23,367 nucleotides of DNA from a virus: IMG/VR virus record IMGVR_UViG_3300032093_000863, positions 1-23,367 of that record, one strand, 5' to 3'. Position numbers and translations under genes: made by a program. The notes below the pieces were generated by a model. That model had not been told where the DNA came from. It did not search any database and was given only the letters and a program-made list of their open reading frames with translations. Shown in pieces: positions 593 to 23,298 of the stretch; the stretch's first letter is position 1, and each line of letters opens with the position of its first letter.

Positions 593-622
593 AAATCCAT
601 ATCTATTTATAGGTATGGATTT
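593..622 (+). promoter_or_regulatory. Start-codon hairpin before gene 615
   Basis: Left arm AAATCCATATCTA (593-605) pairs with right arm TAGGTATGGATTT (610-622) through a TTTA loop (606-609). This gives 13 pairs, all Watson-Crick except one U-G. The ATG of the next gene (615-617) is within the right arm. The octamer TATTTATA (604-611) spans the loop. This is the longest and least A/T-only of the start-codon hairpins in the window. In RNA it should hide the start codon from the ribosome. Whether it acts in RNA or is a DNA site is not shown. Confidence 0.6.
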
Positions 623-977
623 AGATTTTGAATTGTATAAAGGTAAGAAATATTCAAACTTACTTAAGGATGTAGTAATCAATTCTGAACAGAAAAAAGA
701 CCAAATTGATATTTTGGTATCTGATCTCAGAAGTATGATTAAAACACCAAATGATGCTATTGTCATCGTTCCTCTTATAAAAGATTACTTGGATGTAAGT
801 GTGAGAAACGATGAACAATTAGTTAAATTAGCTGCAATAGTACAAAGATTGGTAAGTAACGATAATAAAGGGGCAGAAGAAGTAGGTGGATTATCAGAAG
901 AAGAAAGACAACAATTAATGGCTGAAGTAGGAAAGATTACAGAAACGATGAATACACCAATTGAAATAAAGAAATAA
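615..977 (+). CDS. Conserved small phage protein of unknown function
   Basis: This is a 120-residue soluble, mostly helical, charged protein with no signal peptide, membrane segment or cysteine. The middle (IKTPNDAIVIVPLIKDYLDVSVRN, with DEQLVKLAAIVQRLV after it) reads as two amphipathic helices. The C-terminus (LSEEERQQLMAEVGKI) is an acidic helix. The pattern is familiar from small proteins next to baseplate or packaging genes in large T4-like phages, but I cannot assign a function. The ATG lies inside a strong hairpin (593-622) and has no usable Shine-Dalgarno. The stop is separated from the next ATG by one base, suggesting coupled translation with the spike-like gene at 979. A chaperone, scaffold or small structural role are all possible. 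Confidence 0.8.
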   Translation: MDLDFELYKGKKYSNLLKDVVINSEQKKDQIDILVSDLRSMIKTPNDAIVIVPLIKDYLDVSVRNDEQLVKLAAIVQRLVSNDNKGAEEVGGLSEEERQQLMAEVGKITETMNTPIEIKK

Positions 978-978
978 T

Positions 979-2640
979 ATGCCATATTTTAATATAAAAT
1001 CTTCTCCTATTAGTTTTGGACAGTTAAATAACATTGGTTTGTCGGTTGGAAATCAAACAACTACAACCTCTGCGAATGAATTTTATGAATTGGAACCAGC
1101 AATTGTGTTGGATGTAATTTTGGATGAAACACATTCCGAAATAGTAAATAAAAGACATTTGGTGGATATTAGAAATATACCAGCAAACTATAAAAATGAA
1201 TTGCCTAATCAAAAAGATATAGATTACAGTTATATAGGTGCTTGTAGAGTAAGATTATGTTTTTCACAACAAGGATTGGAAAAAGAAAAGTTGTCATGGG
1301 CATTTCCAATGGAATCTACTGGTATAGTAGAATATCCATTATTAAATGAAGTAGTAATTGTTGTAAAGTATTTGGATAAATTATTTTATACGAGAAAATT
1401 AAATTTAAATGGATTTATTAATCAAGAATCTAATTTTCGACTTGAAAAATTTTATGGTAATAATGATGGAAATAAAGATTTAGTATCAGAAGACGGATTA
1501 AAAACCGAATCTGTCGAGGGTCCATTATCATTGAATTCATTTAAGAAAATTTCAAACAATCAAGTAAAAGGAGTACTTGGTTCATATTTCTTAGCAAATT
1601 CAAAAATTAGAAAATTGAGAAGATACGAAGGAGATACTGTTCTTGAAAGTCGTCATGGACAATCAATTCGTTTTTCTGCATATGATGATATAAGAGATAA
1701 TGATAAAGGTTTTTATTCTGATTATAAAGGCGATCCCACTGTAAATAAATCAAATGAAGGTTGTGGTAACCCAATGGTTTTAATTAGAAATAGACAGAGA
1801 AAATTATCATTGGATAAACCTATATCTGATAGTTCAAAACTGCCGCCAATTCCTGCAATTATAGATTCGCAAAAAAATGTTGGTGGTTTAATTGATGAAG
1901 ATATTAATCACGATGGTAGTTCTATTCACATTACATCTGGATTGACTAAATCTAAATGGAGAACAACTTGTTATAAATCTATATTTCAACAGGGAAAAGA
2001 AGAACAACCACTATTTTCACCAAAAGGTTCTACTGCATATAACTTTGATATAGAAAATTTAAAAGGCGATCAAATTGTAATTAATACAGATAGATTGATT
2101 CTAAGCAGTAGATTTGGTGAAACATTACACTTTTCAAAAGAAAGATATGGAATCGTAACTGATAGTGAATATACAGTTGATGCACATGATCAAATTGTAA
2201 TGACTACCAATAATAAAACAGTATTTAATAGTCCTGCAATTTATTTGGGACAATATGGTCAAACAAATGAACCAGTATTATTAGGACAAACTACAGTAGA
2301 TTGGTTATATGATTTATGTAATTGGTTACTAAATCACGTTCATTGGTATAATCATACACATCCAAAAACTGGTAATGCAAATCCAAATAAAACTCAAGAA
2401 TCGGTTCAAGATAAACAATTAAAGTTTTTAAGAGACAATCTTGACAAGTTAATGAGTAGAAGAGTATTCGTTACTGGTGGTGGTTATGCGCCAGGCGCAG
2501 ATGGTATAATGCCAGAAGGATTTAAAAATGCAACTGCACCAGTATCTGTAAATATAGTATCAGGTCAAGGATTGCCGGGAACATTTAAAGGAAAAGTAAG
2601 ACGAGAAGGTCCAGTAGAAATTCAATATGAAGAAATTTAA
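979..2640 (+). CDS. Baseplate hub/spike-like structural protein
   Basis: The product is 553 residues. The N-terminal ~150 residues look like an OB-fold or adaptor region (AIVLDVILDE, YIGACRVRLCF, then YPLLNEVVIVVKYLDKLFYTRKLNL). At about residues 217-232, EGDTVLESRHGQSIRFSAYD matches the 'GD...EGR.G.SIRFG' segment seen in hub and central-spike proteins of large myophages. A later part (DQIVINTDRLILSSRFGETLHFSKE, DAHDQIVMTTNNKTVFNSPAIYLGQ) has the short regular strands of a beta-prism or beta-helix spike. It ends with a WL..L..WL helix and HVHWYNHTHP (H453, H455, H459, H461), recalling metal-binding HxH of spike tips. I see no lysozyme motif, unlike T4 gp5. Its place directly ahead of gp25 and gp6 supports a baseplate role. 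The subclass is uncertain. Confidence 0.6.
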   Translation: MPYFNIKSSPISFGQLNNIGLSVGNQTTTTSANEFYELEPAIVLDVILDETHSEIVNKRHLVDIRNIPANYKNELPNQKDIDYSYIGACRVRLCFSQQGLEKEKLSWAFPMESTGIVEYPLLNEVVIVVKYLDKLFYTRKLNLNGFINQESNFRLEKFYGNNDGNKDLVSEDGLKTESVEGPLSLNSFKKISNNQVKGVLGSYFLANSKIRKLRRYEGDTVLESRHGQSIRFSAYDDIRDNDKGFYSDYKGDPTVNKSNEGCGNPMVLIRNRQRKLSLDKPISDSSKLPPIPAIIDSQKNVGGLIDEDINHDGSSIHITSGLTKSKWRTTCYKSIFQQGKEEQPLFSPKGSTAYNFDIENLKGDQIVINTDRLILSSRFGETLHFSKERYGIVTDSEYTVDAHDQIVMTTNNKTVFNSPAIYLGQYGQTNEPVLLGQTTVDWLYDLCNWLLNHVHWYNHTHPKTGNANPNKTQESVQDKQLKFLRDNLDKLMSRRVFVTGGGYAPGADGIMPEGFKNATAPVSVNIVSGQGLPGTFKGKVRREGPVEIQYEEI

Positions 2641-2642
2641 TT

Positions 2643-3599
2643 ATGATTAATAAATTAAAATCATTTGTTGACATTGATCCTGCTTTATCTGGTGCTCCAA
2701 CCGAAGGATCTAATGGATTGAAGTTTGTTACTGCGTTAAAATCCGATGTTTCCAGTAAAGTAGGTGGATCAATAGATAAATTTGCATCAAAAACACAACT
2801 TTCGATTGGTGATACTGCCGGTAATTTTGTTGGGGGTGCTATTGGCGGAGTAAGTAATTTTACGAAAGATGTTTTGAGTGGAGTTGATACGGGCATTTTA
2901 GGAAATGCAGCATCTAAAGTTTATGATGTTGCAGGTAATGTAGTATCAAAAGTTGATAGTGTTACGGGGGGTGTTATAGGTAAAACAACTGATATTGCAG
3001 GTAACATTTTAAATAAAGCGGAAAATATTACAGGAGGAGTAACATCAAAAGTTGGTATGGTTTCTAATACAATTACGGAAAAGACGGATGGATTAGTAAA
3101 TGTATCAGATTATAGTCCTTATAATTTTGATGCCAATAATTTAAAAGATAAAAGTATAGATCGTTTTACAGGAAAAGCGACAGACAAAGTTACATCAGTT
3201 ATAGGATCAACTCCGTTAGATGTAGTTGGAAAAGTAGAAAGTAAATCAATAACAGTAAACGAAAAAGTAGGAAGTGTGATTAACACCGTGTTAGATAGTA
3301 GTGTTGGTGAAAAAGTAGGTGGTTATGTAGGATCAAAAGTTGGAGAATCGGTTGGTTCTAAATTGGGAACTGCTATTGGTGGATATTTACCTACAAATAA
3401 AATTGCAAATACTATAGGATCAAACTTAGGAAGTGTTGGTTCAAGTGTTGGTAAATATGTAGGGAAAACGGCAGGAATTGAAACTCAATCTAAACTTAGA
3501 CAAACAATAGGAAAACGTGTAAAAGTCGTAAAAATACCAAAGTTACCTGACCCAGCTTCAATAAATAACAAAATAAATAATACAATAGGTAATATTTAA
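2643..3599 (+). CDS. Glycine/valine-rich repeat protein, probably baseplate-associated
   Basis: This 318-residue protein has low complexity in G, V, S, K, T, I and N, with no cysteine and no classic signal peptide. It contains a near-tandem 22-residue repeat: residues 95-116 begin DVAGNVVSKVDSVTGGV and residues 117-138 begin DIAGNILNKAENITGGV. A looser earlier copy starts near residue 58 (DTAGNFVGGAIGG). A second repetitive tract follows near residues 220-245 (VGGYVGSKVGESVGSKLGTAIGG), with glycine-zipper spacing. The C-terminus switches to a basic, proline-containing tail (KRVKVVKIPKLPDPA). Glycine-zipper amphipathic helices can insert in membranes or pack as bundles. A tail-tip or membrane-contacting role is thus possible but is inference only. 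It starts 2 bp after the spike-like gene and sits between it and gp25, so a virion role is likely. Confidence 0.72.
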   Translation: MINKLKSFVDIDPALSGAPTEGSNGLKFVTALKSDVSSKVGGSIDKFASKTQLSIGDTAGNFVGGAIGGVSNFTKDVLSGVDTGILGNAASKVYDVAGNVVSKVDSVTGGVIGKTTDIAGNILNKAENITGGVTSKVGMVSNTITEKTDGLVNVSDYSPYNFDANNLKDKSIDRFTGKATDKVTSVIGSTPLDVVGKVESKSITVNEKVGSVINTVLDSSVGEKVGGYVGSKVGESVGSKLGTAIGGYLPTNKIANTIGSNLGSVGSSVGKYVGKTAGIETQSKLRQTIGKRVKVVKIPKLPDPASINNKINNTIGNI

Positions 3600-3616
3600 T
3601 GATAATTATATAGAGT

Positions 3617-4099
3617 ATGAAAAGTAATGAATTAAAAGAACTAATTAGATCTGTGATTAAAGAAGAGTTGAATAAAACATTACCTACTTTAATTCCAAAA
3701 GTATTAACGGAAATATTGGCAGGCAATCAATCCAATGTAATTCAATCTAATGAACAGACAATTTTAACTAAAACTGTAGTAAAAGAATCGGTTCAAAAGC
3801 CAAAAGAAATTAAAAAGTATTCAAGTAACCCAATTTTAAATGATATTTTGAATCAAACAGTAGTTAAAATACCAAGTGAAGGTTCAATGGCTGGCCTTGA
3901 TTCTTCATTTAAATCACAAACATTTGCTGGTATGCAAATGAATGAATCCGTAGAAACACCACAACCAGCTGCTCCTGTAACAGAAGAACAAGGTAAAGTG
4001 ATGAATGTTCTTAATAGGGATTTTAGAAGTTTAATGAAAGCAGTAGATAAAAAGAAACAATCCGGAAGTATAGGTTCTGGAATGGTATCAATGGGATAA
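3617..4099 (+). CDS. Small helical phage protein, unknown function
   Basis: The product is 160 residues. The first ~33 residues (SNELKELIRSVIKEELNKTL and on to LTEIL) form a clear amphipathic helix of the 'LK.LIR..I.EEL' type common at the N-terminus of small T4-like phage proteins. The middle is polar and probably disordered (Q/N/S/P-rich, with ETPQPAAPVTEEQGK). The C-terminal ~30 residues contain another helix (VMNVLNRDFRSLMKAVDKKK) and a glycine/serine tail. No catalytic motif is visible. The start ATG follows TAGAGT, the same six bases that precede the ATG at 6537. One base separates its stop from the gp25 ATG, so it is probably translated with the baseplate genes. A baseplate assembly factor or minor structural protein is the most reasonable guess. 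Confidence 0.75.
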   Translation: MKSNELKELIRSVIKEELNKTLPTLIPKVLTEILAGNQSNVIQSNEQTILTKTVVKESVQKPKEIKKYSSNPILNDILNQTVVKIPSEGSMAGLDSSFKSQTFAGMQMNESVETPQPAAPVTEEQGKVMNVLNRDFRSLMKAVDKKKQSGSIGSGMVSMG

Positions 4100-4100
4100 T

Positions 4101-4496
4101 ATGAATCCAATAGGACTAACATTACCTCTTCAAATTGGTAAAAATGGATATTTTCAACAGAGTTATGATACATTAACTCAAGTAAAATCCAACATTACTA
4201 ATTTTTTAAGAACCAAAAAAGGTGAACGTAGAATGAATCCAAACTTTGGTTCTGGATTGCAAGAGTATTTATTTGAACAAAATATAGAAGAATCTCCTGA
4301 TATAATAAAACAGATTATAACGGACGAAGTTAAAAATTATGTACCAGGCGTAATAGTAAATAAAGTTGATATTAACATAGCAAATCAAGAAAAAAATAAA
4401 CTTACAGATAGTTATATATTATATATAAAAATACAATTTACGATTAATAATCAAACGGATACACTTAGTTTGAGAATTAGTCAAAATAATATATAA
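4101..4496 (+). CDS. 25: Baseplate wedge subunit, gp25-like
   Basis: The 131 residues match the gp25 / GPW family of contractile-tail baseplates in length and pattern: an N-terminal 'LPLQIGKNGYFQQS' strand, then helix TLTQVKSNITNFLRTKKGER, then the hallmark R-M-N-P-x-F-G-S-G-L segment and a helix ending in LFEQ. A second half (IIKQIITDEVKNYVPGVIVNKVDI) follows, with C-terminal beta strands. In T4, gp25 sits in the baseplate wedge core next to gp6, gp7 and gp53 and links the wedge to the sheath start. The gene begins one base after the preceding stop, and gp6 begins 2 bp after its own stop, the usual 25-6 order. The lysozyme name sometimes given to this family is not supported by visible catalytic residues. 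Confidence 0.94.
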   Translation: MNPIGLTLPLQIGKNGYFQQSYDTLTQVKSNITNFLRTKKGERRMNPNFGSGLQEYLFEQNIEESPDIIKQIITDEVKNYVPGVIVNKVDINIANQEKNKLTDSYILYIKIQFTINNQTDTLSLRISQNNI

Positions 4497-4498
4497 TT

Positions 4499-6481
4499 AT
4501 GGCAGACATCATACAAAAGTCTTTTAATAGTTCCCGTAGAGAAATTAAGTATCTTAATAGAGACTTTTCTTCTTTTAAAACATCTTTAATTGAATATTCA
4601 AAAACATACTTTCCAAGAACATATAAAGATTTTAGTGAAGCATCTCCTGGTATGATGTTTATTGAAATGGCATCATATATTGGAGATGTTCTTTCATATT
4701 ATACAGATTATCAATTTAAAGAAAGTTTAATGCCATTTGCAGAAGAAAGAAAAAATGTTCTCGCATTAGCAAATTATCTTGGTTACAAAACAAAACCAAC
4801 TAAATCTTCTACTACAAATATTGATTTATATCAATTAATTCCATCTATTAAGGATTCGAATAATAATTATATTCCGGATAATAACTACGCTCTCAAAATA
4901 AGAGAGTATATGGAAGTTTCTAATGAAAGTGGAGTAAGTTTTATTACAACCGATCCTATTGATTTTTCTCTTGATAGCAAGTTTTCTCCCAGAGAAGTTA
5001 CTGTTTATTCAAGAGACAATTATGGTGTACCACAATTTTTTTTATTAAAGAAATCTGCAAAAGTTATTGCAGGTAAGATTACAACCAAATCATTTACTGT
5101 TGGAGTTTCTGTGCCATTTTATAAAATATCATTGTCTGAACTTAATGTTGTAGACATAATTGATGTAAGAGATGGTGATAATAATAAATGGTATGAAGTT
5201 GATTATTTGGCACAAGATCTGATTTTTACTGAAACAGAAAATACTGATTTTACTAATAACACATATGTTCAATATTCATCTGAAGTTCCAAAATTAATTA
5301 AAAGTTTAAAAACATCAAGAAAGTTTGTTGTAAATGTTACTGCGAATAATGTAACATATCTTGAATTTGGTGCTGGTACAGATGCGACTTCTGATGAAGT
5401 AATTTATCCAAATTCCGAATTGGTTGGTGTAGGATTACAAAATATCAATAATTTGAATTTAAATTATGATACTAGTAAACTATTAAATTCCGAAACATTG
5501 GGTCAAGCGCCATCAAATACAGTGTTAACTGTACAATATTTGGTTGGGGGTGGATTGTTATCAAATTCACCATCGGATACAATCAAAAATATATCTTCAG
5601 TTACATATTTGAATGATACCACTGGTTTAACACCGTCACAAAATTCATTATTAACTACAGTTAAAAATTCATTAAGAATATCCAATCCTAATCCTGCGAT
5701 TGGTGGACAAAATGAAGAAAGTGTAGAAGAAATAAGACAAAATGCTTTGGCTAATTTTGGTTCTCAAAATAGAACAGTTACTGTTGACGATTATGTTTCT
5801 AGAATATATTCAATACCACCAAGATTTGGTTCAATTGCAAAAGTAATGGTAATACCAAATTCAGATTTATCAATTTCTACAAATCAAACACTATTAAACG
5901 GATTTGTAAATAATGAAAATCAAACAACATTGATCAATAATAGTTTAGAAAATAACTTTAGAAAAGTAAATTTTGATGTTTCTAATCCATTTAGTTTAAA
6001 TTTATATGTTTTGAGTTACAATTCAAATAAAAACTTGACACAAACAAATGAAGCATTAGTTTACAATATCAGACAATATTTACAAAAATACAAAATTATT
6101 TCGGATAGTGTTAATATTATTGATGGATATATCATTAATATAGGAATAGATTTTAAGATAGTAGTATATAATAATTTCAATAAAAAAGAAGTTTTGGACC
6201 AATGTCTTCAAAAAGCAAAAGATTTCTTTAATATTGACAAATGGTATTTTAATCAACCAATTAATACTAATCAATTTGAATTAGAATTAGCTAAAGTTGA
6301 AGGCGTACAGTCAATTGCGGAAGTAAAATTTAAAAATCTTACTCAAAATGATGGGGATTATTCTCCACATGAATACAACTTATCAGAAGCAACTCATAAT
6401 AAGATTATATATCCATCATTAGATCCATCGGTATTTGAAGTCAAATATCCAGATAATGATATTAGAGGTGCAGTAATTTAA
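4499..6481 (+). CDS. 6: Baseplate wedge subunit, gp6-like (baseplate J family)
   Basis: The product is 660 residues, matching T4 gp6 in size. The N-terminus (REIKYLNRDFSSFKTSLIEY, then FPRTYKDFSEASPGMMFIEM and a YIGDVLSYYTDYQFKE helix, then NVLALANYLGYK) is the typical gp6 opening. A central part carries the baseplate-J-like pattern of SVEEIRQNALANFGSQNRTVTVDDYVSRI, followed by AKVMVIPN. The C-terminus (IDKWYFNQPINTNQFELELAKVEGVQSI) is also typical of J/gp6 proteins. In T4 two gp6 copies per wedge form the ring around the hub and drive the baseplate conformational change. The ATG follows gp25 by 2 bp with no Shine-Dalgarno, implying coupled expression. A 55-bp gap after the stop ends this tight cluster. 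Confidence 0.93.
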   Translation: MADIIQKSFNSSRREIKYLNRDFSSFKTSLIEYSKTYFPRTYKDFSEASPGMMFIEMASYIGDVLSYYTDYQFKESLMPFAEERKNVLALANYLGYKTKPTKSSTTNIDLYQLIPSIKDSNNNYIPDNNYALKIREYMEVSNESGVSFITTDPIDFSLDSKFSPREVTVYSRDNYGVPQFFLLKKSAKVIAGKITTKSFTVGVSVPFYKISLSELNVVDIIDVRDGDNNKWYEVDYLAQDLIFTETENTDFTNNTYVQYSSEVPKLIKSLKTSRKFVVNVTANNVTYLEFGAGTDATSDEVIYPNSELVGVGLQNINNLNLNYDTSKLLNSETLGQAPSNTVLTVQYLVGGGLLSNSPSDTIKNISSVTYLNDTTGLTPSQNSLLTTVKNSLRISNPNPAIGGQNEESVEEIRQNALANFGSQNRTVTVDDYVSRIYSIPPRFGSIAKVMVIPNSDLSISTNQTLLNGFVNNENQTTLINNSLENNFRKVNFDVSNPFSLNLYVLSYNSNKNLTQTNEALVYNIRQYLQKYKIISDSVNIIDGYIINIGIDFKIVVYNNFNKKEVLDQCLQKAKDFFNIDKWYFNQPINTNQFELELAKVEGVQSIAEVKFKNLTQNDGDYSPHEYNLSEATHNKIIYPSLDPSVFEVKYPDNDIRGAVI

Positions 6482-6482
6482 T

Positions 6483-6511
6483 AAATTTATCATTAAAAGT
6501 CTTATAAATTT
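6483..6511 (+). other. A/T-only inverted repeat after gp6 gene
   Basis: AAATTTAT (6483-6490) and ATAAATTT (6504-6511) are perfect 8-base arms around a 13-base spacer. All pairs are A-T and no T-run follows, so this is a poor intrinsic terminator. In about 75% A+T DNA such a pair can arise by chance. It may simply flank the promoter-like TATAAATT next to it. Confidence 0.3.
6503..6510 (+). promoter_or_regulatory. Possible T4-type late promoter
   Basis: TATAAATT differs at one position from the T4 late -10 consensus TATAAATA read by gp55-type sigma. It lies in the longest early gap (6482-6536). Using T4 spacing it would start RNA near 6516, about 20 bases ahead of the ATG at 6537. A gp55-like gene is present at the window start. 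The motif is short and A/T-only, so this is only a candidate. Confidence 0.35.
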
Positions 6512-6539
6512 CATACTTATATTTATATAATAGAGTATG
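6512..6539 (+). promoter_or_regulatory. Start-codon hairpin before DNRLRE gene
   Basis: CATAC (6512-6516) pairs with GTATG (6535-6539). The inner TTATA (6517-6521) pairs with TATAA (6526-6530) around a TTTA loop, with TAGA (6531-6534) bulged. The ATG at 6537-6539 is in the right outer arm. TATTTATA (6520-6527) spans the loop, as at 604-611. It is weaker than the hairpin at 593-622 because of the bulge, but has the same loop and the same start-codon placement. Confidence 0.45.
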
Positions 6540-8162
6540 CACACATTTATATTTCCAAAACAAGACACATTCATAACTAACGAAACTGGTTATGCCGATA
6601 AAAATTTTGGAATTGACGAAATTTTAGAATTAAAAGCACAAAATCAATTAGTAACCAATGTAACTTTTTACAGTTCTGCAAGTCTTTCTGGTAGTTATTC
6701 TACATTTGATGTATTAAACTATTCAGGAAATATTTCTGGAAGTTACCTATCAGGTTCTACGGAATCATCAAATATATACATTAGTGGATCATCTCAATTT
6801 ACTTCAACAAATTATAATGGATATGTATCAGGAACATATGGTGCTGGAATTCCGATTACATCGAGTTTAACTAATTATAACGGTTCAGTTACTGGTAGTA
6901 TAAGTGGTAGTATAATAGGATCTTTTACTGGTTCAATTTTTGCTGCTAGTGGATCGTTAGTTAATTTCGATGGATGTATAAATGGAACTTTACAAGGAAC
7001 ACAGAGTGTTTACAATCCTACTACAACATTTACTAATGATCCAGAATTTAGCAGAATTTTGATTCAATTTGATTTAACTGCAATTTCAAGTTCCCTTTTG
7101 ACGGGAGATATAAATAATGGATCTAAATTTTTCTTAAAATTAAAGGCATCTTCTACAAGTGAAGTACCATTAGATTATAAAATTTATGCGTATCCAATTA
7201 GCAAAAGTTGGGATATGGGTATAGGAAGATATGACACTGAAGGACTAGGTAGTTTTGGTGCTAGTTGGTATTATAATACTACACAAAATACTTCTAGTTT
7301 GTGGTATTCACCTACGTCATCTACAGAAACTTATGATTTCAGTGATTATCTTTTAACATCAAGTTTAGGATCTGCATCATTCCAAAATGGAGGAGCTACA
7401 TGGTTGTATAATGTACCATCAACTTATTTACAACCAACTTCTAGCACATCATCATCATTTTATAATATTTCTAGCGGATCAAAGTATATATCATCATTTT
7501 GTTCATCTTCATTGAGCGGCAGTTCATTAATATGTTCACAATCATATTCTTATAGTACATCCGATATTTACATGGATGTTACTCCAATAGTTAAAGGTTG
7601 GATTTGTGGATGTATTCCTAACAATGGATTCATTTTAATAAGTTCACTTGAATTAATTCAATCAAATGATGTTAATTCTAGTATAAGATTCTTCAGTAAA
7701 GAAACTAATACTATTTATCAACCATATTTAGATGTTCAATGGGATGACAGCACATATTCTACAGGTAGTTTAATACCATTAACAGGATTTAATCCATATA
7801 CAGTAGTTATTAAGAATGTGGGTAGAGAATACAAATTTGGAAGTGTACCTCGTATAAACATATTTGCGAGAGAAAAATCACCATTAAAGAATTTTGTTAA
7901 AGGATATCAACAAAGTCAATATTTAAGTTCAAGTTTATTACCTTCTGATTCTTATTATGCGATTAAAGACAATGAAAGTGAAAATTTTGTAATTGATTTT
8001 GATGATTATACAAAATTAAGTTGTGACGGTGCAATTCATTATTTCAGACTAGATACAACTGGTTTACCTGTTGAAAGATATTATAGAATTTTAATAAAAA
8101 CAGAAATTAACGGTGAAATCGTAATATTTGATAACGGAAACATATTTAAAGTATCAAGATGA
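6537..8162 (+). CDS. DNRLRE-type tail/baseplate structural protein
   Basis: The product is 541 residues. It opens with FPKQDTFITNETGYADKNFG, a DNRLRE-type beginning. It continues after an insertion with FSRILIQFDLTAI (about residue 171), KLKASSTSEVPLDYKIYAYPISKSW, a W/G/Y-rich stretch, YMDVTPIVKGW (about 343-353), NGFILIS and a Y-x-P-Y-L-D-V-Q-W strand. This order is typical of the DNRLRE beta-sandwich. The insertion at roughly residues 47-150 is rich in S, G, T and Y, with four loose copies of N-Y/F-x-G-x-x-x-G near residues 61, 92, 113 and 143. The C-terminal ~135 residues (VGREYKFGSVPRINIFAREKSP onward) look like a separate conserved phage domain. The stop overlaps the next ATG by 4 bp. 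It is likely a wedge-periphery or fibre-attachment protein. The exact T4 counterpart is unclear. Confidence 0.72.
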   Translation: MHTFIFPKQDTFITNETGYADKNFGIDEILELKAQNQLVTNVTFYSSASLSGSYSTFDVLNYSGNISGSYLSGSTESSNIYISGSSQFTSTNYNGYVSGTYGAGIPITSSLTNYNGSVTGSISGSIIGSFTGSIFAASGSLVNFDGCINGTLQGTQSVYNPTTTFTNDPEFSRILIQFDLTAISSSLLTGDINNGSKFFLKLKASSTSEVPLDYKIYAYPISKSWDMGIGRYDTEGLGSFGASWYYNTTQNTSSLWYSPTSSTETYDFSDYLLTSSLGSASFQNGGATWLYNVPSTYLQPTSSTSSSFYNISSGSKYISSFCSSSLSGSSLICSQSYSYSTSDIYMDVTPIVKGWICGCIPNNGFILISSLELIQSNDVNSSIRFFSKETNTIYQPYLDVQWDDSTYSTGSLIPLTGFNPYTVVIKNVGREYKFGSVPRINIFAREKSPLKNFVKGYQQSQYLSSSLLPSDSYYAIKDNESENFVIDFDDYTKLSCDGAIHYFRLDTTGLPVERYYRILIKTEINGEIVIFDNGNIFKVSR

Positions 8163-8611
8163 GTATAAAATCACAAATCAATGACTTTTTATTAACAGGC
8201 CAATTCACTAATAACATTGATGAATTTGGTAATGTAAATTTATATATTAGTTCAAGTGAAGCAAATGAACAATATATTGCATTTGAATTGATAAATTTTA
8301 ATTATAAAAAAGATGAAATTGAAAATTTATATGATGTAGGTATTACTGAAATACAAACAGAACCTATAATTCAAAAACAAGTATTTGATCAAACTTTCTT
8401 AACTGAATATAATAAAGTATTATATGAAAATCAAGACTTGAAAGAAAAATTAAATCAATTGGTTGACGAAGTACAGTCCGATTCATCCAAGTCGCAATTA
8501 AGTGCAGCAAGAGATTTAATCATAGAATTAAGAATTAAATTAAAGCAAGGAAATAAACCTGAAGATTTTTCTAACGAATTTCCTTTTAATTTAAAATCTG
8601 AAAATGAATAA
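8159..8611 (+). CDS. Coiled-coil phage protein, unknown function
   Basis: This 150-residue protein starts within an ATGA overlap with the DNRLRE gene, so translation is probably coupled. The first ~80 residues contain beta-prone segments (NVNLYISSSEANEQYIAFELINF) and an acidic stretch. Residues from about 85 to 135 (FLTEYNKVLYENQDLKEKLN, then a Q-L-V-D-E-V segment, then SAARDLIIELRIKLKQG) have heptad-like leucines of a coiled coil. It has no cysteine, membrane segment or catalytic motif. Its position between two baseplate or fibre genes suggests a small trimerisation, chaperone or wedge accessory protein. That role is inferred from location only. Confidence 0.75.
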   Translation: MSIKSQINDFLLTGQFTNNIDEFGNVNLYISSSEANEQYIAFELINFNYKKDEIENLYDVGITEIQTEPIIQKQVFDQTFLTEYNKVLYENQDLKEKLNQLVDEVQSDSSKSQLSAARDLIIELRIKLKQGNKPEDFSNEFPFNLKSENE

Positions 8612-8614
8612 TTT

Positions 8615-12858: not shown

Positions 12859-12876
12859 ATATTTATTGATAAATAT
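12859..12876 (+). other. A/T hairpin in the gap before gene 12888
   Basis: ATATTTA (12859-12865) and TAAATAT (12870-12876) form a perfect stem around TTGA. There is no following T-run, so it is not an obvious terminator. Unlike the start-codon hairpins it ends 11 bases before the ATG. It overlaps the promoter-like GATAAATA. Confidence 0.35.
12868..12875 (+). promoter_or_regulatory. Possible T4-type late promoter before gene 12888
   Basis: GATAAATA matches the T4 late consensus TATAAATA at seven of eight bases. With T4 spacing, RNA would start near 12881 and give a leader of only about 7 bases before ATG 12888. The bases just after it, ATACTTATATT (12875-12885), are repeated exactly at 6513-6523 in front of gene 6537, which suggests shared control. 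The motif is short and A/T-rich, so support is modest. Confidence 0.38.
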
Positions 12877-12887
12877 ACTTATATTAT

Positions 12888-13517: not shown

Positions 13518-13531
13518 CCGCTTAATAAAAT

Positions 13532-14638: not shown

Positions 14639-14650
14639 ACTAATGGATAC

Positions 14651-15274: not shown

Positions 15275-17586
15275 CCGATCCAATTTATAAATTAAAAACA
15301 GGATATTCAATTGCTGCTGACGGTGATTATGTAGCAGTTGGAAATCCTACATCTTTTTTATCCGGATCATTCGTATTAAATAATAAAGGATCGGTTGAAG
15401 TATTTAAATATTCTAAAACAACAGATGTATACGATCCCAATTTTATATTTTATAAATACATAAATCCGGATGATTTTCCAGGATATTTGTCTGCGGATAC
15501 CAGTAGTGTAGACACTACATATATTAATGCAGATACATCATCTGTTCCTATTTTAGGATTGAACATAGAAATTGATTTAGGTGGATGGAATCCTGTTATT
15601 TATGATGATTCTTATGGCTTATCTGTAGATGTATCCGGATCAATAGTAGTAATTGGAAATCCATATTATAGATTTTCATTGATTAACGGTTCTATAGTTT
15701 ATACAGGTTCTTGTGTTGATATATACGATTTATCTGATTATTCAAGTAGTTATGTATCTGGAACGGTTTATTATCCAAAATATAGTATTACAAATTCATT
15801 TGACAATCTAGAATATTCTACATTTGGTGAATCGGTTTCAATTTTTGAAAACAAATTAGTAGTTGGATCAAGTAAAAATAATGCGGCTTATATATATACA
15901 CAATCTCTTGGTGTATGGAACCATTATCAAACATTATCTCCTGGTGGATTACCTGCGGATTATTATTATGGTAGTGTAGTTAAGATTGATCCGAGTGGAT
16001 CAAATAGAATAGTAGTTGGTAATAAATCAACAGGCAGTGCAGTTTTTGTATACGAATTAAATACATCTACAAATCAATGGGTGGAAAATGATAGATTGGA
16101 TCAAGACAGAAATATTACCGGTTCATTAAATTTCATTGATACCAAACCATATTTTCCTGGCAGTCAACCAAGCGGAAGTAATTATGGTAATTCGGTATCA
16201 ATCTATGGAGATACAATTATGGTAGGTTCTCCAAATGACATGTATTATTATGAATGGAGTGGTTCTACAGTTCTACGAAATAGAGGTGCAGTTTATTTTT
16301 GGAAAAAGTGTTCGGATGCAACTGATTGGTTTTTATTAGAAAAATCATTTGGAGATGATAATATTTTAGAATCAAATAATTTAGGATATTCCGTTGACAT
16401 TTACAAAGGCAATGCGATTGCTACCAGTACAAAAGATATTAGTCAATTTAGTTCTAGTTATATTAAAAATACAATTAATAAAAGATTTGATTGCAACCCA
16501 AATGACAATGTAATTGATACTTTAGGACAAATTGTTTACTATACATCATCACTATCTACTTCACTATGGGAAGTAAAATCTGTAGTTACTAAAAAGAAAA
16601 AATATGGTTATCCATACACAACATTTGGATATAGTACTGCAATTACAGATAATATAATATCAATTGGTTCCCCATTATTCTTGGTAAACCCAAATGAAAT
16701 GACATCTTCCGTATATGATACCATAAATGGTTATTCATATATTTATAATTTTAATGATCTAGTCACCAATTATCATATTGGAAATGTATTTTATAGAGAT
16801 GGTAAGATTATTTTGTCAAATAGTGGTTCTATTTTTGATAATTTATTAAAAGATCGTTCTAATCCATTACAATCTAAATATGACATTGAATATAAGAGCA
16901 ATGTTAAACTATATGAAAAACAAGTATTATGTAGAATTGAATCTGGAGAATTTAACTATAGTACAAATCCTACATCATTAGTTCCAAATACATTTGATTT
17001 TGATATTGATGGTAATAAATATTTTGATTTTACCGACCTAGATTTGATATTAAAATATATTAACTATCAAGTAAATGGTTCATATAATTGGTGGGATTAT
17101 ATGACATTTACAAATGAAGAACAATCACTATTTAATCTTTATTCTGTAGAATATAACATTTCATCTAGTTATACAACCAATTATACTTCATTATTGTCAT
17201 CAAACTATTATGATTTTGATATTGATGGTAATAATAAAGTTAATTTGAATGATATGTACATACTGTGGAAGTATTTCAATGATAATTTGAATCAAACCGA
17301 TATATTCAAGTATATAGAACCGAAGTCTATTAGAAAAACTGTACAAGAAATTGTAAGTTATATTGAACAAAAAACTGGTAAATTTGGTGGTAAGAGTATA
17401 AAAGAAGAATTTTTTGGATTTAATTATAGTTCTTCAATTGACCCAACTGGTTCTTATTTAGCTCCATATATAACAACAGTAGGGCTTTATAGTGGTGCAG
17501 ATTTGGTTGCGGTTGCTAAATTGGGTATGCCAATTAAAAATACTGGTGAATTACCACTAAATATTTTTGTAAAATGGGATATTTAA
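15271..17586 (+). CDS. FG-GAP beta-propeller / dockerin-like tail fibre protein
   Basis: This 771-residue protein is a mosaic. Residues ~11-470 carry seven spaced copies of a (Y/F/L)-G-x-S-V-x-(I/V)-x(4,7)-(V/I)-V-G-(N/S)-P/S unit, near residues 11, 115, 185, 233, 305, 371 and 452. This is the FG-GAP signature of integrin-like seven-bladed propellers. A possible eighth copy is near 502. Residues 550-570 carry the landmark CRIESGEFNYSTNPTS. Two dockerin-type EF-hand loops follow: D578-D580-N582-D586-D589 with TDLDLILKYI after it, and D650-D652-N654-N658-D661 with DMYILWKYF after it. Residues 732-771 (PYITTVGLYSGADLVAVAKL and a final strand) match the end of the 13532-14638 product. The likely role is a host-contacting fibre or adhesin anchored to the baseplate by its shared C-terminus. 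Calcium binding is expected from the loops but unproven. Confidence 0.75.
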   Translation: MTDPIYKLKTGYSIAADGDYVAVGNPTSFLSGSFVLNNKGSVEVFKYSKTTDVYDPNFIFYKYINPDDFPGYLSADTSSVDTTYINADTSSVPILGLNIEIDLGGWNPVIYDDSYGLSVDVSGSIVVIGNPYYRFSLINGSIVYTGSCVDIYDLSDYSSSYVSGTVYYPKYSITNSFDNLEYSTFGESVSIFENKLVVGSSKNNAAYIYTQSLGVWNHYQTLSPGGLPADYYYGSVVKIDPSGSNRIVVGNKSTGSAVFVYELNTSTNQWVENDRLDQDRNITGSLNFIDTKPYFPGSQPSGSNYGNSVSIYGDTIMVGSPNDMYYYEWSGSTVLRNRGAVYFWKKCSDATDWFLLEKSFGDDNILESNNLGYSVDIYKGNAIATSTKDISQFSSSYIKNTINKRFDCNPNDNVIDTLGQIVYYTSSLSTSLWEVKSVVTKKKKYGYPYTTFGYSTAITDNIISIGSPLFLVNPNEMTSSVYDTINGYSYIYNFNDLVTNYHIGNVFYRDGKIILSNSGSIFDNLLKDRSNPLQSKYDIEYKSNVKLYEKQVLCRIESGEFNYSTNPTSLVPNTFDFDIDGNKYFDFTDLDLILKYINYQVNGSYNWWDYMTFTNEEQSLFNLYSVEYNISSSYTTNYTSLLSSNYYDFDIDGNNKVNLNDMYILWKYFNDNLNQTDIFKYIEPKSIRKTVQEIVSYIEQKTGKFGGKSIKEEFFGFNYSSSIDPTGSYLAPYITTVGLYSGADLVAVAKLGMPIKNTGELPLNIFVKWDI
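16995..17018 (+). repeat. First copy of 24-bp direct repeat (EF-hand loop 1)
   Basis: Bases 16995-17018 are identical to 17211-17234, exactly 216 bp (72 codons) downstream and in the same frame. They encode the FDFDIDGN part of the first dockerin-like calcium loop. Identity at every base, including synonymous positions, points to recent duplication or gene conversion. Confidence 0.85.
17211..17234 (+). repeat. Second copy of 24-bp direct repeat (EF-hand loop 2)
   Basis: This is the exact partner of 16995-17018 and encodes YDFDIDGNN at the start of the second dockerin-like loop. Sequence beyond the 24 bases diverges, so the copies are not part of a longer perfect repeat. Confidence 0.85.
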
Positions 17587-17587
17587 A

Positions 17588-17617
17588 CATATTTATAAAA
17601 AGAAAGTATAATATATG
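17588..17617 (+). promoter_or_regulatory. Start-codon hairpin before gene 17615
   Basis: CATAT (17588-17592) and TTATA (17593-17597) pair with TATAA (17607-17611) and ATATG (17613-17617), with one bulged T at 17612 and a purine loop AAAAGAAAG (17598-17606). The ATG at 17615-17617 is in the right arm. TATTTATA is at 17590-17597. The purine loop could serve as a weak ribosome-binding region. The stem is nearly all A-T, so stability is modest. Confidence 0.42.
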
Positions 17618-17911
17618 CCAACACCAGTAAACAGAGAATCTTTAAACAAGAGTCTAGAACAAAGATATCAATCTCAAAGTTCAGGAGGTGCATTTAATGC
17701 TAAAGATATCAATACCAAACCAGATTCTATAACAACTGGTCCAAATCCTTCTGCAAAGGGTCAACAATTTACAATTGATAAAGGTGGATTTAGAGTAAAA
17801 CAACCAATTGGATTGTCAGATTTAGCGGATGTTCCAGATAGAAAAAATAGTACATCTAAAGAATTATCATCATTGGTAAAGGGTTTTAATAATAAAAAAT
17901 ATAAAGGATAA
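17615..17911 (+). CDS. Small phage protein of unknown function
   Basis: This 98-residue hydrophilic protein is rich in S, N, K, G and Q, without cysteine or membrane segments. Segments such as NRESLNKSLEQRYQSQSSGG, INTKPDSITTGPNPSAKGQQ and GGFRVKQPIGLSDLADVPDR suggest an extended or disordered polypeptide with a short beta core. The 'GLSDLADVP' element is reminiscent of linker pieces in phage fibre and neck proteins, but I cannot assign a function. It sits alone between the structural block and the DNA metabolism block, bounded by gaps of 28 and 23 bp that both hold start-codon hairpins, so its expression may be controlled separately. A minor virion protein or small regulator is possible. Confidence 0.68.
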   Translation: MPTPVNRESLNKSLEQRYQSQSSGGAFNAKDINTKPDSITTGPNPSAKGQQFTIDKGGFRVKQPIGLSDLADVPDRKNSTSKELSSLVKGFNNKKYKG

Positions 17912-17914
17912 TAA

Positions 17915-17937
17915 CATATACTATATATTAGTATATG
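17915..17937 (+). promoter_or_regulatory. Perfect inverted repeat over the resolvase start codon
   Basis: CATATACTA (17915-17923) and TAGTATATG (17929-17937) are perfect 9-base reverse complements around TATAT. The last three bases are the ATG of the RuvC-like gene. No Shine-Dalgarno precedes it. The element fills the whole intergenic gap after the stop at 17909-17911. It could be an RNA hairpin hiding the start codon or a DNA operator with twofold symmetry. Confidence 0.55.
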
Positions 17938-18501
17938 GTTATATTAGGTTTAGATTCATCCACATCAGTTACAGGTTGGGCATTTAGTAAAGACGGAAAA
18001 GTCTTAGATGCCGGTTATATTGATACCAAAAAATTTGAAACAACAAAAGAGAAAACTTTTTTTGTTATATCCGAATTGGAAAAGAATCTGTTAATTAAAG
18101 ATGTTACCGTCATTAATTTAGAAGCCGCTTTAAGTGGATTTGCTGGTGGATTCACATCACAACAAGTTATAATTACATTGGCTCGTCATAACGCAGTCTT
18201 TGCTTATATTATTGAAGAACACTTTAAAGTCAAGGTAAATCTGTTATCGGTTAATACTATGCGTAAACAATTATTTGGTAAGTGTAGAATTAAAGGCGTT
18301 AAATCAAAAGAATTTGTAAAATGTGAATTGGAATCACTTTGTCCTGATGTAGTTAAATTTACTGTTCTTAACAAAAAGGGTAATTGGGATGAACGAAATG
18401 GTGATATGTATGATGGTATAGTCTGCGCATTATACAAAGATGAACCGCAACAAAATAATAGAGTTAGCAAAAAAGATAAAAGCATTAGCCGAAAAGGGTA
18501 A
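17935..18501 (+). CDS. RuvC-like Holliday junction resolvase
   Basis: The 188-residue product has the RNase H-fold resolvase pattern. It opens with VILGLDSSTSVTGWAF (D7 in the first strand), has a second acidic residue in VINLEAALSGFAGG (E63), and ends with NGDMYDGIVCALY (D157 and D160) at the usual RuvC C-terminal catalytic helix. These four acidic residues would bind two metal ions and cut four-way junctions. T4 uses the unrelated endonuclease VII for this job, so here a RuvC-type enzyme probably clears branched DNA before packaging and during recombination-dependent replication. The last ~20 residues (basic, polar) overlap the next gene by 62 bp. The ATG lies in a perfect inverted repeat. 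The fold call is strong. The exact substrate is inferred. Confidence 0.85.
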   Translation: MVILGLDSSTSVTGWAFSKDGKVLDAGYIDTKKFETTKEKTFFVISELEKNLLIKDVTVINLEAALSGFAGGFTSQQVIITLARHNAVFAYIIEEHFKVKVNLLSVNTMRKQLFGKCRIKGVKSKEFVKCELESLCPDVVKFTVLNKKGNWDERNGDMYDGIVCALYKDEPQQNNRVSKKDKSISRKG

Positions 18502-19102
18502 GGGCGGAGAAAGAAATGCGGCTAAAGAAAAGTTAGAACGGATATGTCAAAAATATAATATATCCAAAAGTGAATTATCTACATCGGAAGAAGCTAAAAA
18601 TTATTACATTGTAATAAATGATTCAAATGAAAGAGAATTGCTTATTAATGTATGTTGTATGATATTGGATGTTCCTGGATTCAAATGGAAAGAAAAAAAT
18701 AATTGTATTTGTATTCATATTACTCAACCAGAATATGAAAATATTAATAGTGCATTTGAATATTATAGAGACATGTACAATGACTATAAAAGATATTTGA
18801 TGCAAGGAATAATTTCTAGACATGCAATTGGATATATCCCAAAACATCAAACATATACTCAAGAAAATATTCAACAAGATATTCCACCCACTCCATCCGA
18901 AGATATTAAAGACGAAGAAAAAGAACAAAAAACCGAAGGAAATGATGATGAAACATCAAGTGAAAGTAAAAATTCCGAAGATAAATCTGAAGATGTTGAA
19001 AAAGAAAAACCGATTGATCCAATCAAGTTGATGAAAATTGCAGTTGCATTGGATAAGAAACCGTGGGTGAAAAATGATCCAAATAAAAAGTTGATAGAAT
19101 AA
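18440..19102 (+). CDS. DUF2786-domain protein
   Basis: The product is 220 residues. Residues ~4-45 (IIELAKKIKALAEKGKGGER, then NAAKEKLERICQKYNIS) match the short helical DUF2786 domain, often found in phage proteins of unknown function. A second part (~50-135: IVINDSNERELLINVCCMIL, then NNCICIHITQPEYENINSAF and EYYRDMYNDYKRYLM) resembles the region that commonly follows DUF2786. The C-terminal ~75 residues are a highly charged, E/K/S/D-rich disordered tail ending in a short basic segment. The start must be the ATG at 18440 because DUF2786 begins at once, so the 62-bp overlap with the resolvase gene is real. Position among replication genes suggests a role in DNA metabolism, but no enzymatic motif is visible. 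Confidence 0.78.
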   Translation: MNRNKIIELAKKIKALAEKGKGGERNAAKEKLERICQKYNISKSELSTSEEAKNYYIVINDSNERELLINVCCMILDVPGFKWKEKNNCICIHITQPEYENINSAFEYYRDMYNDYKRYLMQGIISRHAIGYIPKHQTYTQENIQQDIPPTPSEDIKDEEKEQKTEGNDDETSSESKNSEDKSEDVEKEKPIDPIKLMKIAVALDKKPWVKNDPNKKLIE

Positions 19103-19103
19103 G

Positions 19104-19119
19104 ACTTTTATTGTAAAGT
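19104..19119 (+). other. Short hairpin ahead of primase gene
   Basis: ACTTT (19104-19108) and AAAGT (19115-19119) can pair around TATTGT. This is only 5 bp with no T-run. It ends 7 bases before the ATG at 19127, so it does not cover the start. It may be a degenerate member of the start-codon hairpin set or chance. Confidence 0.22.
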
Positions 19120-19126
19120 ATAGTTA

Positions 19127-20077
19127 ATGTTGTTATATCAAGAGACAATTGTATCCGTTTTAAATAAACTGTTACATCAAGTTCCTAAGATTCGTAAGGG
19201 AACTGATGCAGTTTATCATTGTCCATCTTGCAAACATTACAAAAGAAAACTAGAAATTAATTTACATACAGGTAAGTATAATTGTTGGGTATGTGGATTT
19301 AGTGGAACAAGTTTCAAGACTTTATTTAAGAAATTAAATGCTCCAGCAGAATATTATACAACAATTGGATTAAGTCAAAAATCTTTTTCTAAGAAACTAA
19401 CCACAGAATTTTCTATTTCTTTTGAAGATGAACCAGAAGAACTAAAATTGGTTAAGTTGCCTAAAGAATTTAAACCAATCAATGAACCCGTGAATGAACT
19501 GGAATATAAACATGCATTAAAATATCTAAAGTCTAGAAATATAACTAAGAATGATATTATTAGATACAACATTGGATATTGTACTGAAGGTGATTTGAAA
19601 AACAGAGTGGTAATACCATCATATGACAACAATGGCATATTAAATTTTTATACAGCTAGAAGTTTTTTTGAAACTAAAGGATTGAAATATGTTAGTTGTT
19701 CATCATCAAAGAATATTATTGGATTTGAATTATTTATTAACTTTGAACAACCAATAACATTAGTGGAAGGTCCATTTGATGCTATTGCAGTAAAAAATAA
19801 TTGTATACCATTGTTTGGTAAGACAATGAGTAAGCAATTAAAATTAAAATTATTAGAACACGATGTACCGATGGTACATATTTTATTAGACAATGATGCG
19901 ATAAAAGATTCCATCAAAATCTGTGAATTTCTAATCAAGAATAGTATTCCAACTAAATTAATAATGTTGGACGGTAAAGATCCAAGCGTAATAGGTTTTG
20001 AAAAAACTTGGCAACTGATAGATAGTTGTGATACGATGGACTTTGAAAAGTTATTTAAGTTAAAACTAAGAATATAA
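19127..20077 (+). CDS. DNA primase (zinc-binding plus TOPRIM)
   Basis: The product is 316 residues, near the size of T4 gp61 (about 340). The N-terminal zinc module has C32-x2-C35 and C53-x2-C56 (YHCPSCKHYK and KYNCWVCGFSG), the four-cysteine type of phage primases that reads the template trinucleotide. The middle has KHALKYLKSRNITKNDIIRY and IGYCTEG, then NRVVIPSYDNNGILNFYTAR, as in DnaG-type cores. TOPRIM signatures follow: LVEGPFDAIAV (E214) and HILLDNDA (D255, D257). I see no helicase domain, so a separate gp41/DnaB-type helicase is expected elsewhere. It starts 24 bp after the DUF2786 gene and its stop is one base from the nuclease gene. It would make RNA primers for lagging-strand synthesis. 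Confidence 0.88.
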   Translation: MLLYQETIVSVLNKLLHQVPKIRKGTDAVYHCPSCKHYKRKLEINLHTGKYNCWVCGFSGTSFKTLFKKLNAPAEYYTTIGLSQKSFSKKLTTEFSISFEDEPEELKLVKLPKEFKPINEPVNELEYKHALKYLKSRNITKNDIIRYNIGYCTEGDLKNRVVIPSYDNNGILNFYTARSFFETKGLKYVSCSSSKNIIGFELFINFEQPITLVEGPFDAIAVKNNCIPLFGKTMSKQLKLKLLEHDVPMVHILLDNDAIKDSIKICEFLIKNSIPTKLIMLDGKDPSVIGFEKTWQLIDSCDTMDFEKLFKLKLRI

Positions 20078-23000: not shown

Positions 23001-23264
23001 GAACGATTTGTTAGTTCATTGGCTATGAGAGTAGCGTTAATTAACATTAGTAATCTACCAAGACCCAATTTTATAGCTATAGATGAAGGATTTGGATGTG
23101 CTGATGCCGATAATTTATCATCTATGGGTGCTTTATTTGCGTTTTTGAAGACTAACTTTGATTTCGTATGGATTATTAGTCATTTGGATAGTATGAGAGA
23201 TATGGTTGACAATAGACTTGAAATTAAGAAAGAAAACGGGTTCTCTAAAGTTAATTATGTATAA
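20079..23264 (+). CDS. Single-chain SbcD-SbcC (gp47-gp46) recombination nuclease fusion
   Basis: This 1061-residue protein joins both subunits of the Mre11-Rad50 class. Residues ~14-260 are the calcineurin-like nuclease: ADIH (D20, H22), LGDVLH (D57, H60), GNHD (91-94), FHGP (H168) and LGDIHRHQ (200-207). Residues ~260-380 are a capping or linker part. The ATPase half begins FDNMFSYGEDNVIDF, with Walker A GLFANNAAGKSS near 414-425 and a Q-loop QNN near 529. Long coiled-coil arms flank a zinc hook DPNCTFC (C736, C739). At the end are the signature ELASGMERF (969-977), Walker B FIAIDEGF (998-1005) and H-loop ISH (H1035). All motifs are intact, so it should be active. In T4, gp47 and gp46 are separate and resect DNA ends for recombination-dependent replication. 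There is no stop or frame change between the halves. Confidence 0.93.
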   Translation: MAKYLKSDIEKFKNVFHIADIHLRLTKRHDEYNQVFERLYKAVEKTPAETVVTVLGDVLHSKSDLSPECVKITTEFLQNLADRRPTVLIAGNHDATLANKNRLDSLSPIVDAINHKNLFYLKDSGLYILGDILFNHYSVFDEPDKYIKAKDIPKVYLNETRYKIALFHGPVNNAITDVGYKVASRTITNQIFDGHDIVLLGDIHRHQVLNQSEPIIVYVGSLIQQNHGEELKGHGFVFWDLKTKVFKHFEIPNDYGFYTAEINKGKLTTDISDMPKKARLRLKCFESVATEVKSVLSHIREKSDVTEVTYVRVDSPNTSSNNIIDNSNFNLTDVSDVDYQNKLITDYLNNKNVSPTKDTLEKIYKINKDLNASLEKESIVRNIRWKPKKFEFDNMFSYGEDNVIDFTKMHNVVGLFANNAAGKSSVLSALSFCIFDKCDRAFKASHILNTQKMTFRCKFNFEVNGVDFFIERKGHADKKGNVKVDVKFWKEDGGKVVELNGEARRSTNDIIRDYVGTYDDFILTVLSIQNNKVGSFVDMGQTERKDLLAQFMGLTIFDSLYNDASDKTKEINSLLKNFKNNDYTQKLLNLNADIENFSGSLRNENSNLEKLSNQRDSENDRLLDETKKLINVNGNIIDIVSLESKKVSLENSISTQSSSLNSYKSQLLSVESTYKEYDEIIKNYDNDDITTKYESFKELETSLSQKEQFIEKKKIVVTSKLQKLKKLEEHKYDPNCTFCTTNVFVKDAIKTREELESDKVEAQSLVGEYTNLKNKVGELSYIKDHWKEYNDIHKLHVETQIKINKLNTEILKLSNNISSNQNSLINIDSQIKEYYNNKDAIEFNKTVKDTIDSIKSNIKTIDLEIKNVNNNIINYNTKISGFEEQRKTIQKSIEDVKVLEVEYEAYQLYTNAISRDGIPYELISRALPTIEKEVNNILNQIVEFTVILQTDGKNVTTHINYEDKRWPLELASGMERFVSSLAMRVALINISNLPRPNFIAIDEGFGCADADNLSSMGALFAFLKTNFDFVWIISHLDSMRDMVDNRLEIKKENGFSKVNYV

Positions 23265-23269
23265 TTAAT

Positions 23270-23298
23270 GGGTATATATATTTATAGTATATATGCCC
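23270..23298 (+). promoter_or_regulatory. Start-codon hairpin before the last gene
   Basis: GGGTATATAT (23270-23279) pairs with ATATATGCCC (23289-23298): ten pairs with one U-G, around a 9-base loop. The ATG at 23293-23295 is in the right arm. TATTTATA occurs at 23279-23286. The three G-C pairs at the base are notable in such AT-rich DNA. No T-run follows, so it is not an ordinary terminator for the nuclease gene. Confidence 0.55.

Follow-up and report, generated by a model that had tools for sequence, protein, structure and literature searches.

We identified predicted hairpins that bury the start codons of two genes, g1 and g20, in a 23,367-base virus record (IMGVR_UViG_3300032093_000863), which we analyzed whole and call the window. 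Each hairpin holds an eight-base box, TATTTATA, that resembles the late promoters of phage T4. We think it fairly probable that these two hairpins are translational insulators of late genes of the T4 type, with the start codon itself occluded. Hairpins at g7 and at a gene for a RuvC-like protein may act likewise, and the one at g14 probably just accompanies its promoter box. We conclude that the element is real at two genes, a possibility at two others, and unsupported at the fifth. The window appears to come from a T4-like aquatic phage; through its gp6-type protein, the closest named phages are Microcystis phage Mel-JY01 (42%) and Flavobacterium phages immuto (38%).

Hairpins over start codons in the window

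A sequence-only reading of this DNA had described five inverted repeats that place the downstream ATG in their 3' arm, and folding confirmed that all five exist on the plus strand. The g1 hairpin (593-622) has arms at 593-605 and 610-622 that form 13 contiguous pairs, with the ATG (615-617) in the 3' arm. The g20 hairpin (23269-23299) has 14 pairs anchored by GGG/CCC, and its 3' arm contains the ATG at 23293-23295. At g7 (6512-6539) the arms, 6512-6523 and 6529-6539, include one bulge, and the ATG lies at 6537. The RuvC-like gene starts (ATG 17935) in a hairpin or palindrome at 17915-17937, and the hairpin at the g14 start (17588-17617) is weak. Folding z-scores were -4.39 for 593-622, -2.42 for 6512-6539, -1.10 for 17588-17617, -2.41 for 17915-17937, and -3.80 for 23270-23298.

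We scored each start in a test that forced the ATG into a contiguous stem paired upstream, using 40 nt of upstream sequence and 5000 dinucleotide shuffles for each of 19 starts in the window. The p values were 0.0018 for g1, 0.0058 for g20, 0.042 for the RuvC-like gene, 0.052 for g7, and 0.24 for g14, and the remaining 14 starts gave values between 0.30 and 1. Multiplying by the 19 starts left g1 as the sole site below 0.05 (0.034), with g20 at 0.11. The hairpins at g1 and g20 are thus strong, those at g7 and the RuvC-like gene are marginal, and the one at g14 is chance-like. We rejected the proposal that all five sites form one uniform family, since g14 behaves like chance and the RuvC-like site keeps its very letters. 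We also counted perfect stems of at least 10 pairs and found 0 in the window because its hairpins hold G-T pairs; this count was dropped in favor of the shuffle tests.

The window plus ten related contigs supplied 814 starts, all of whose folding energies were compared with 300 shuffles. Starts preceded by gaps of at least 20 nt reached p ≤ 0.01 in 18 of 454 cases (4.5 expected), against 1 of 311 (3.1 expected) for gaps below 10 nt. Over all starts, 19 reached this threshold (8.1 expected), and the mean energy did not differ from that of shuffles (-1.45 versus -1.48). We then tested 672 dereplicated gaps from fetched loci with 1000 shuffles, which gave 6 start hairpins at p ≤ 0.001 (0.7 expected) and 12 at p ≤ 0.01 (6.7 expected). 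Strong start hairpins are rare, occurring in about 1% of gaps. Relatives carry strong ones at a gene for a DUF7487 protein (L192:11190), a GIY-YIG-like gene (L177:9837), and an unassigned gene (L173:13668-14331).

A late-promoter-like box and a sigma-like gene

The element common to the five gaps is a strand-specific box, A or C followed by TATTTATA, inside or beside the hairpin loop. The box lies on the plus strand at 604-611 before g1 (3 nt ahead of the ATG), 6520-6527 before g7 (9 nt), 17590-17597 before g14, and 23279-23286 at the tip of the g20 hairpin (6 nt). The RuvC-like gene has the variant TATATATT at 17922-17929, 5 nt ahead of its ATG. The sequence-only reading was largely right about the kind of element, and this box is the part it missed. 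Its description of a shared GTAT...ATG look is partly explained by TATTTATA and TATATATT; the pattern GTATNNNATG has 13 matches in place of 6.35 expected, none of them at the five sites.

The number of boxes in the window is not in excess (8 seen, 8.8 expected). Four of the 19 gene starts have TATTTATA 2-20 nt upstream, compared with 2 of 454 internal ATGs (Fisher p 2.7e-5). Placement, not number, is therefore the unusual feature. Across 631 genes in eight related contigs, TATTTATA peaks 3-6 nt ahead of starts and the T4 consensus, TATAAATA, is flat; it is thus TATTTATA and not TATAAATA that is enriched there. Among 629 genes in eight contigs, TATTTATA is the commonest 8-mer 2-7 nt ahead of starts, with 53 occurrences against 1.5 expected from the -40 to -64 zone. 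On the same basis the variants TATATATA (21 versus 1.0) and TATTTATT (18 versus 1.0) are tolerated. The spacer to the ATG among 97 boxes was 4 nt in 27, 5 nt in 13, 3 nt in 6, and 6 nt in 5. For boxes up to 30 nt away, contig G011 included, the preceding base was A in 76% and C in 24%.

We compared the functions of genes with and without the box. PHROG scans covered 18 box genes (10 of 15 in contig G009 and 8 of 11 in G001) and returned two head-tail adaptors, a tape measure protein, and a portal protein; 2 genes matched families of unknown function, 12 matched nothing, and none matched DNA metabolism. Ten of the 41 boxless genes in G009 served as controls and included PhoH, primase, UvsX, exonuclease, and DnaB, along with 2 members of unknown families and 2 genes without a match. 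The tenth control is a major head protein, which runs counter to a strict box rule. In the 150,000 of 160,366 bases of immuto that we scanned, 28 boxes lie on the plus strand and 14 on the minus strand. Some lie 10-30 nt ahead of the terminase, portal, sheath, tail completion, hub, and a spike gene; others precede hypothetical genes or fall within genes. The box therefore stands ahead of late structural genes, with the boxless major head gene and the other immuto boxes as exceptions. Tight spacing between box and ATG is a trait of the window's own lineage more than of immuto.

Late promoters in T4 and cyanophages have the sequences TATAAATA and NATAAATA and are recognized with the sigma factor gp55, according to PMC2984593 and PMC7892883. 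The latter also places a -10-like element at the usual -10 position in T4, and there TATTTATA appears as the template strand of a T4 promoter. The window shares with these systems an 8-base, -10-like box ahead of structural genes and a gene for a sigma-like protein. From this resemblance we regard the box as a probable late promoter. A sigma-70 promoter scan of the window found 119 sites, fewer than the 150.9 in shuffles. Among the titles and abstract openings listed by a literature search whose coverage did not extend to most subscription papers, we found no earlier report of this box or of leaderless late genes in a T4-like phage.

The candidate late sigma is g0 (3-578, plus strand; 5' end cut by the window), which lies directly before the first hairpin. 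Ten contigs carry versions of it with 72-99% identity, and the version in G011 has 45%. Its homologs in immuto and Mel-JY01 are annotated as hypothetical proteins. No PHROG or Pfam match was found for g0, and a PDB sequence search returned one row at E 0.35. The AlphaFold model (mean pLDDT 78.9, pTM 0.47) combines a sigma-2-like part with another helical part. A Foldseek search with this model gave mostly sigma factors by title (first 19 PDB matches), none at E ≤ 0.001. VIA-align placed 7d7c_F first (Z 8.0, 3.4 Å, 81 residues aligned), with other sigma chains tied within 1, and, judged by their titles, 49 of the 50 matches shown were sigma factors or RNA polymerase complexes; helical models can reach such Z values by chance. 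We take chain F of 7d7c to be gp55, the entry being titled as a gp55-dependent complex. An hhalign comparison of g0 with T4 gp55 gave a probability of 2.4% and no sequence match. We call g0 sigma-like rather than gp55 because hhalign failed, Foldseek gave nothing at E ≤ 0.001, and the VIA-align rows were tied; on its model, it is a late-sigma candidate.

The hairpin sites in related phages

The g20 hairpin is present in four lineages with differing arms: the window's clade, L115, L319, and G007. The respective arms are GGGTATATAT.../...ATATATGCCC, GGCCATATA.../...TATATGGCC, GCCATATA/TATATGGC, and CCATATGT.../ACATATGG. When arms were exchanged among the four lineages, the mean energy rose from -15.6 kcal/mol for own arms to -10.0 kcal/mol for swapped arms, and the own arrangement was the best of 24. 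The first base of codon 2 is a C paired with G in the window and a G paired with C in the three other lineages. Loci of the L094-L109 kind have a different layout after the SbcCD-like gene, with ATATTTATA 39-45 nt ahead of the next ATG and then a GAAAGGAAA stretch.

For g1 we examined the best 80 of 215 places with relatives, 79 of which contain the gene, and scored a start stem as present at 15 or more. In a wider set, 13 of 32 distinct contexts reach this score. Exchange of arms among nine distinct g1 sequences gave -10.6 kcal/mol for own and -9.2 kcal/mol for swapped arms; own pairing beat both the row and the column mean in 6 of 9, and 7 of 2000 permutations did as well, in a comparison of related sequences that are not independent. 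The arm exchanges thus point to pairing kept by compensating changes at g20 (four lineages) and g1 (nine distinct sequences). The sequence-only reading had looked to such changes in the arms as a check on all its hairpins. The remaining sites behave otherwise: the g14 hairpin is not kept, the g7 hairpin is kept in its own clade only, and at the RuvC-like gene the letters are kept too.

These comparisons bear on whether the hairpins are by-products, with an A/T-rich box in A/T-rich flanks before the ATG folding on itself and only the promoter being of consequence. The box does persist without a stem elsewhere: at g14 the exact box occurs in 10 of 12 distinct contexts and a stem of at least 15 in 1, and at g4 the exact box occurs in 19 of 27 and a start stem in 0. 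The g7 stem (score 14.5) appears in 2 of 9 contexts, each belonging to the window's clade. The shuffle p values at g14 and g7 given above also suit a by-product, as does the low number of near-box genes with a hairpin at p ≤ 0.01 (3 of 65; 0.7 expected). At g1 and g20, however, the hairpins beat shuffles and pairing is kept with changed arms in several lineages, and the arms are anchored by G/C (GGG/CCC and GGCC/GGCC). As a general account we regard by-product folding as unlikely, and we favor insulation at g1 and g20.

The RuvC-like site raises another alternative, that the hairpins are DNA palindromes bound by a regulator, that is, operators over promoter and start, rather than RNA structures. 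A start stem of at least 15 occurs there in 12 of 21 contexts, and the palindrome TATACTATATATTAGTATATG, which occurs once in the window and once in each of five other contigs, hardly varies among them, even in its loop. This palindrome may serve as an operator in addition to forming a hairpin. At g1 and g20, by contrast, the sequence changes while the pairing stays, and no common operator word was seen there except the box, so we hold operators to be an improbable explanation of the sites as a whole.

Relatives carry a different device in the g1 slot. Among the 79 closer loci, 37 have a start stem (11 distinct sequences), 23 have a terminator adjoining the box (8), and 19 have neither (3). 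The box is present in all by a relaxed pattern, and hairpin and terminator occur together in none. In L282, L291, L268, L293, and others, the terminator-like hairpin upstream of g1 ends right at the box (GAGTGGTTTTTCTATTTATAGATATATG in L282). A terminator directly before a late promoter would also keep g1 off read-through RNA; unlike the start hairpin, it acts on transcription and leaves the ATG free. The choice of hairpin, terminator, or neither fits a common need to insulate g1, with exceptions.

The G/C stem and T run found in this slot suggest that the window hairpins could themselves be terminators or attenuators. We consider this very improbable, since no T run follows their stems and the 3' arm continues into coding sequence. 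A scan of window positions 1-20000 found 7 terminator-like sites (4.7 expected), none at a start hairpin and none between genes; the g20 hairpin at 23269-23299 lay outside this range and was judged from its sequence, which has no T run. Terminators at the window sites were rejected on these grounds.

Proposed late control of g1 and g20

We predicted the accessibility of each start codon on two RNAs. In read-through RNA, the probability of an AUG with all three bases unpaired was 0.0000 (to four decimals) at both g1 and g20, 0.0001 for g7, 0.0013 for the RuvC-like gene, and 0.0051 for g14. On RNA starting at the AUG it was 0.79 for g1, 0.89 for g7, 0.93 for the RuvC-like gene, and 0.72 for g14. 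Pairing of the AUG on the longer RNA is thus seen in silico at g1, g20, g7, and the RuvC-like gene, and exceeds chance at g1 and g20 only.

We propose the following model. Read-through RNA from the upstream gene would carry both arms, and the hairpin would bury the AUG and block initiation. Read-through is plausible because no terminator-like site lies between genes in positions 1-20000. Late in infection, RNA polymerase with a phage sigma factor, for which g0 is the candidate, would start at the TATTTATA box on the hairpin tip, about at the AUG. If the box is placed as in T4, its spacer of 4-5 nt would make transcription begin on the A of the ATG or right beside it. The late mRNA would lack the 5' arm and be translated with its leader absent or nearly so. 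The read-through RNA would be silent at g1 and g20 and the late RNA active. We infer the role of the box, the start of the transcript, and the block to translation from sequence comparison.

The proposed mode of action is, by analogy, that of the T4 hairpins that sequester translation starts. In T4 genes e, soc, 49, and I-TevI, the Shine-Dalgarno sequence and/or AUG lies in a helix on long RNA, and late promoters remove the 5' part of the RNA at e and I-TevI, as set out in PMC3014915. The likeness would extend to an inverted repeat over the translation start, a late promoter between or inside the arms, and a late RNA without the 5' arm. In contrast to T4, no Shine-Dalgarno sequence was seen, the AUG itself is buried, the box abuts the start codon at 3-6 nt from the AUG, and the late mRNA is predicted to be near-leaderless. 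No T4 counterpart was assigned to g1 or g20. One marginal window hairpin falls on a Holliday-junction-resolvase-like gene, and we draw the parallel with T4 gene 49 (EndoVII). The same control is described for homing endonucleases of T4-like phages (I-TevI to III, segB, and Aeh1 mobE) in PMC2988022. A relative's GIY-YIG-like gene at L177:9837 recalls these cases, with a strong start hairpin and a TATTTATT box beside the loop by eye; its GIY-YIG match is below the Pfam cut-off, and no endonuclease match was found for the window genes.

T4 also uses RNA operators for autoregulation, as at gene 43 (PMC3014915), and the hairpins could likewise bind a phage or host RNA-binding protein. The loops differ and hold the promoter box, and the genes involved differ, which makes autoregulation a very remote explanation. 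The earlier suggestion of T4-type read-through control agrees well with g1 and g20, given the box in the loop, pairing kept with changed arms, and a terminator in the same slot elsewhere. This support does not extend to all five sites. That reading had also suggested that the phage and host do not use Shine-Dalgarno pairing. GGAG, GAGG, or AGGA occurred at -18 to -4 in 0 of 18 window starts of the automatic gene set, and the control zone at -38 to -23 equally gave 0.

A wider model is tenable, and we rate it somewhat below an even chance. The whole late regulon would be leaderless, with TATTTATA about 4 nt ahead of the ATG and mRNA beginning at the AUG. Its genes would be kept silent on read-through RNA by either of two insulators, a terminator preceding the box or a start-trapping hairpin that surrounds it, and would be driven by g0 as a diverged late sigma whose gene directly precedes the first insulated one. 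According to PMC5312081, leaderless transcripts are common in phages. This control would carry the textbook T4 arrangement, a hairpin with a late promoter inside it, over to further genes of a T4-like lineage that is large, mostly uncultured, and without a visible Shine-Dalgarno sequence. For immuto and Mel-JY01 it would also supply a defined late-promoter box and a protein that is a candidate for the late sigma. If late mRNAs do start at the AUG, these genes would form a natural system that pits leaderless against internal initiation at one start codon.

Several observations weigh against insulation by these hairpins. For g20, the start codon stays largely paired even on RNA beginning with it (probability unpaired 0.16), and the g12 start at 14651, outside the five sites, also has a low read-through value (0.009). 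Decoy hairpins placed 25 nt upstream in the 672 gaps were about as common as start hairpins (4 at p ≤ 0.001 and 18 at p ≤ 0.01), so intergenic hairpins are in excess generally, both on and before the ATG. Decoys 30 nt inside the gene numbered 0 and 6 at these thresholds, and 10 of 15 upstream-decoy hairpins have a run of at least 4 T after the stem by eye and are terminator-like. The box differs from the T4 sequence at two positions, the central bases, and g0 has no sequence match to gp55. At g20, locus L317 has the box without a hairpin (score 7.0) and G007 has the hairpin without TATTTATA. The gap after the SbcCD-like gene lacks a start stem (4.5-7.0) and has its box 39-45 nt away in 11 of 11 scored loci (L094-L097, L099, L100, L103-L106, and L109; window-clade loci in this range excluded). 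At g1, the 19 of 79 loci with neither device also count against the model. The three states require just 3 changes on a g0+g1 tree of 29 of the 79 loci and 3 contigs, with state labels set by us and the weak G006 hairpin labeled as a hairpin, so few independent events lie behind the 79 loci. Finally, the distant loci L079, L019, L080, L077, and L022 have a stem of at least 15 plus a terminator by eye, which limits the exclusivity of the two devices to the 79 closer loci.

We also annotated the genes around these sites. The long genes of the window lie on the plus strand. g1 (615-977, plus strand) encodes a conserved protein of unknown function; it follows directly on g0 and precedes the baseplate genes. 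g20 (23293-23367, plus strand) is the start of a large protein, 1005-1023 amino acids in four close relatives, and follows the SbcCD-like gene. We take the Metallophos protein of the window to be SbcCD-like from gene order and length. PHROG and Pfam scans of g1 and g20 gave nothing usable, and no Rfam family matched the window at gathering score. PHROG and Pfam identified baseplate wedge proteins of the gp25 and gp6 types. Besides a primase, the window encodes the RuvC-like Holliday junction resolvase (17935-18501, plus strand; PHROG match, E 2.1e-6). G009 and G010 encode RuvC-like proteins with 92-93% identity to that of the window, though g1 there is only 63% identical. This pattern suggests that the RuvC-like gene was recently exchanged, with a differing upstream region.

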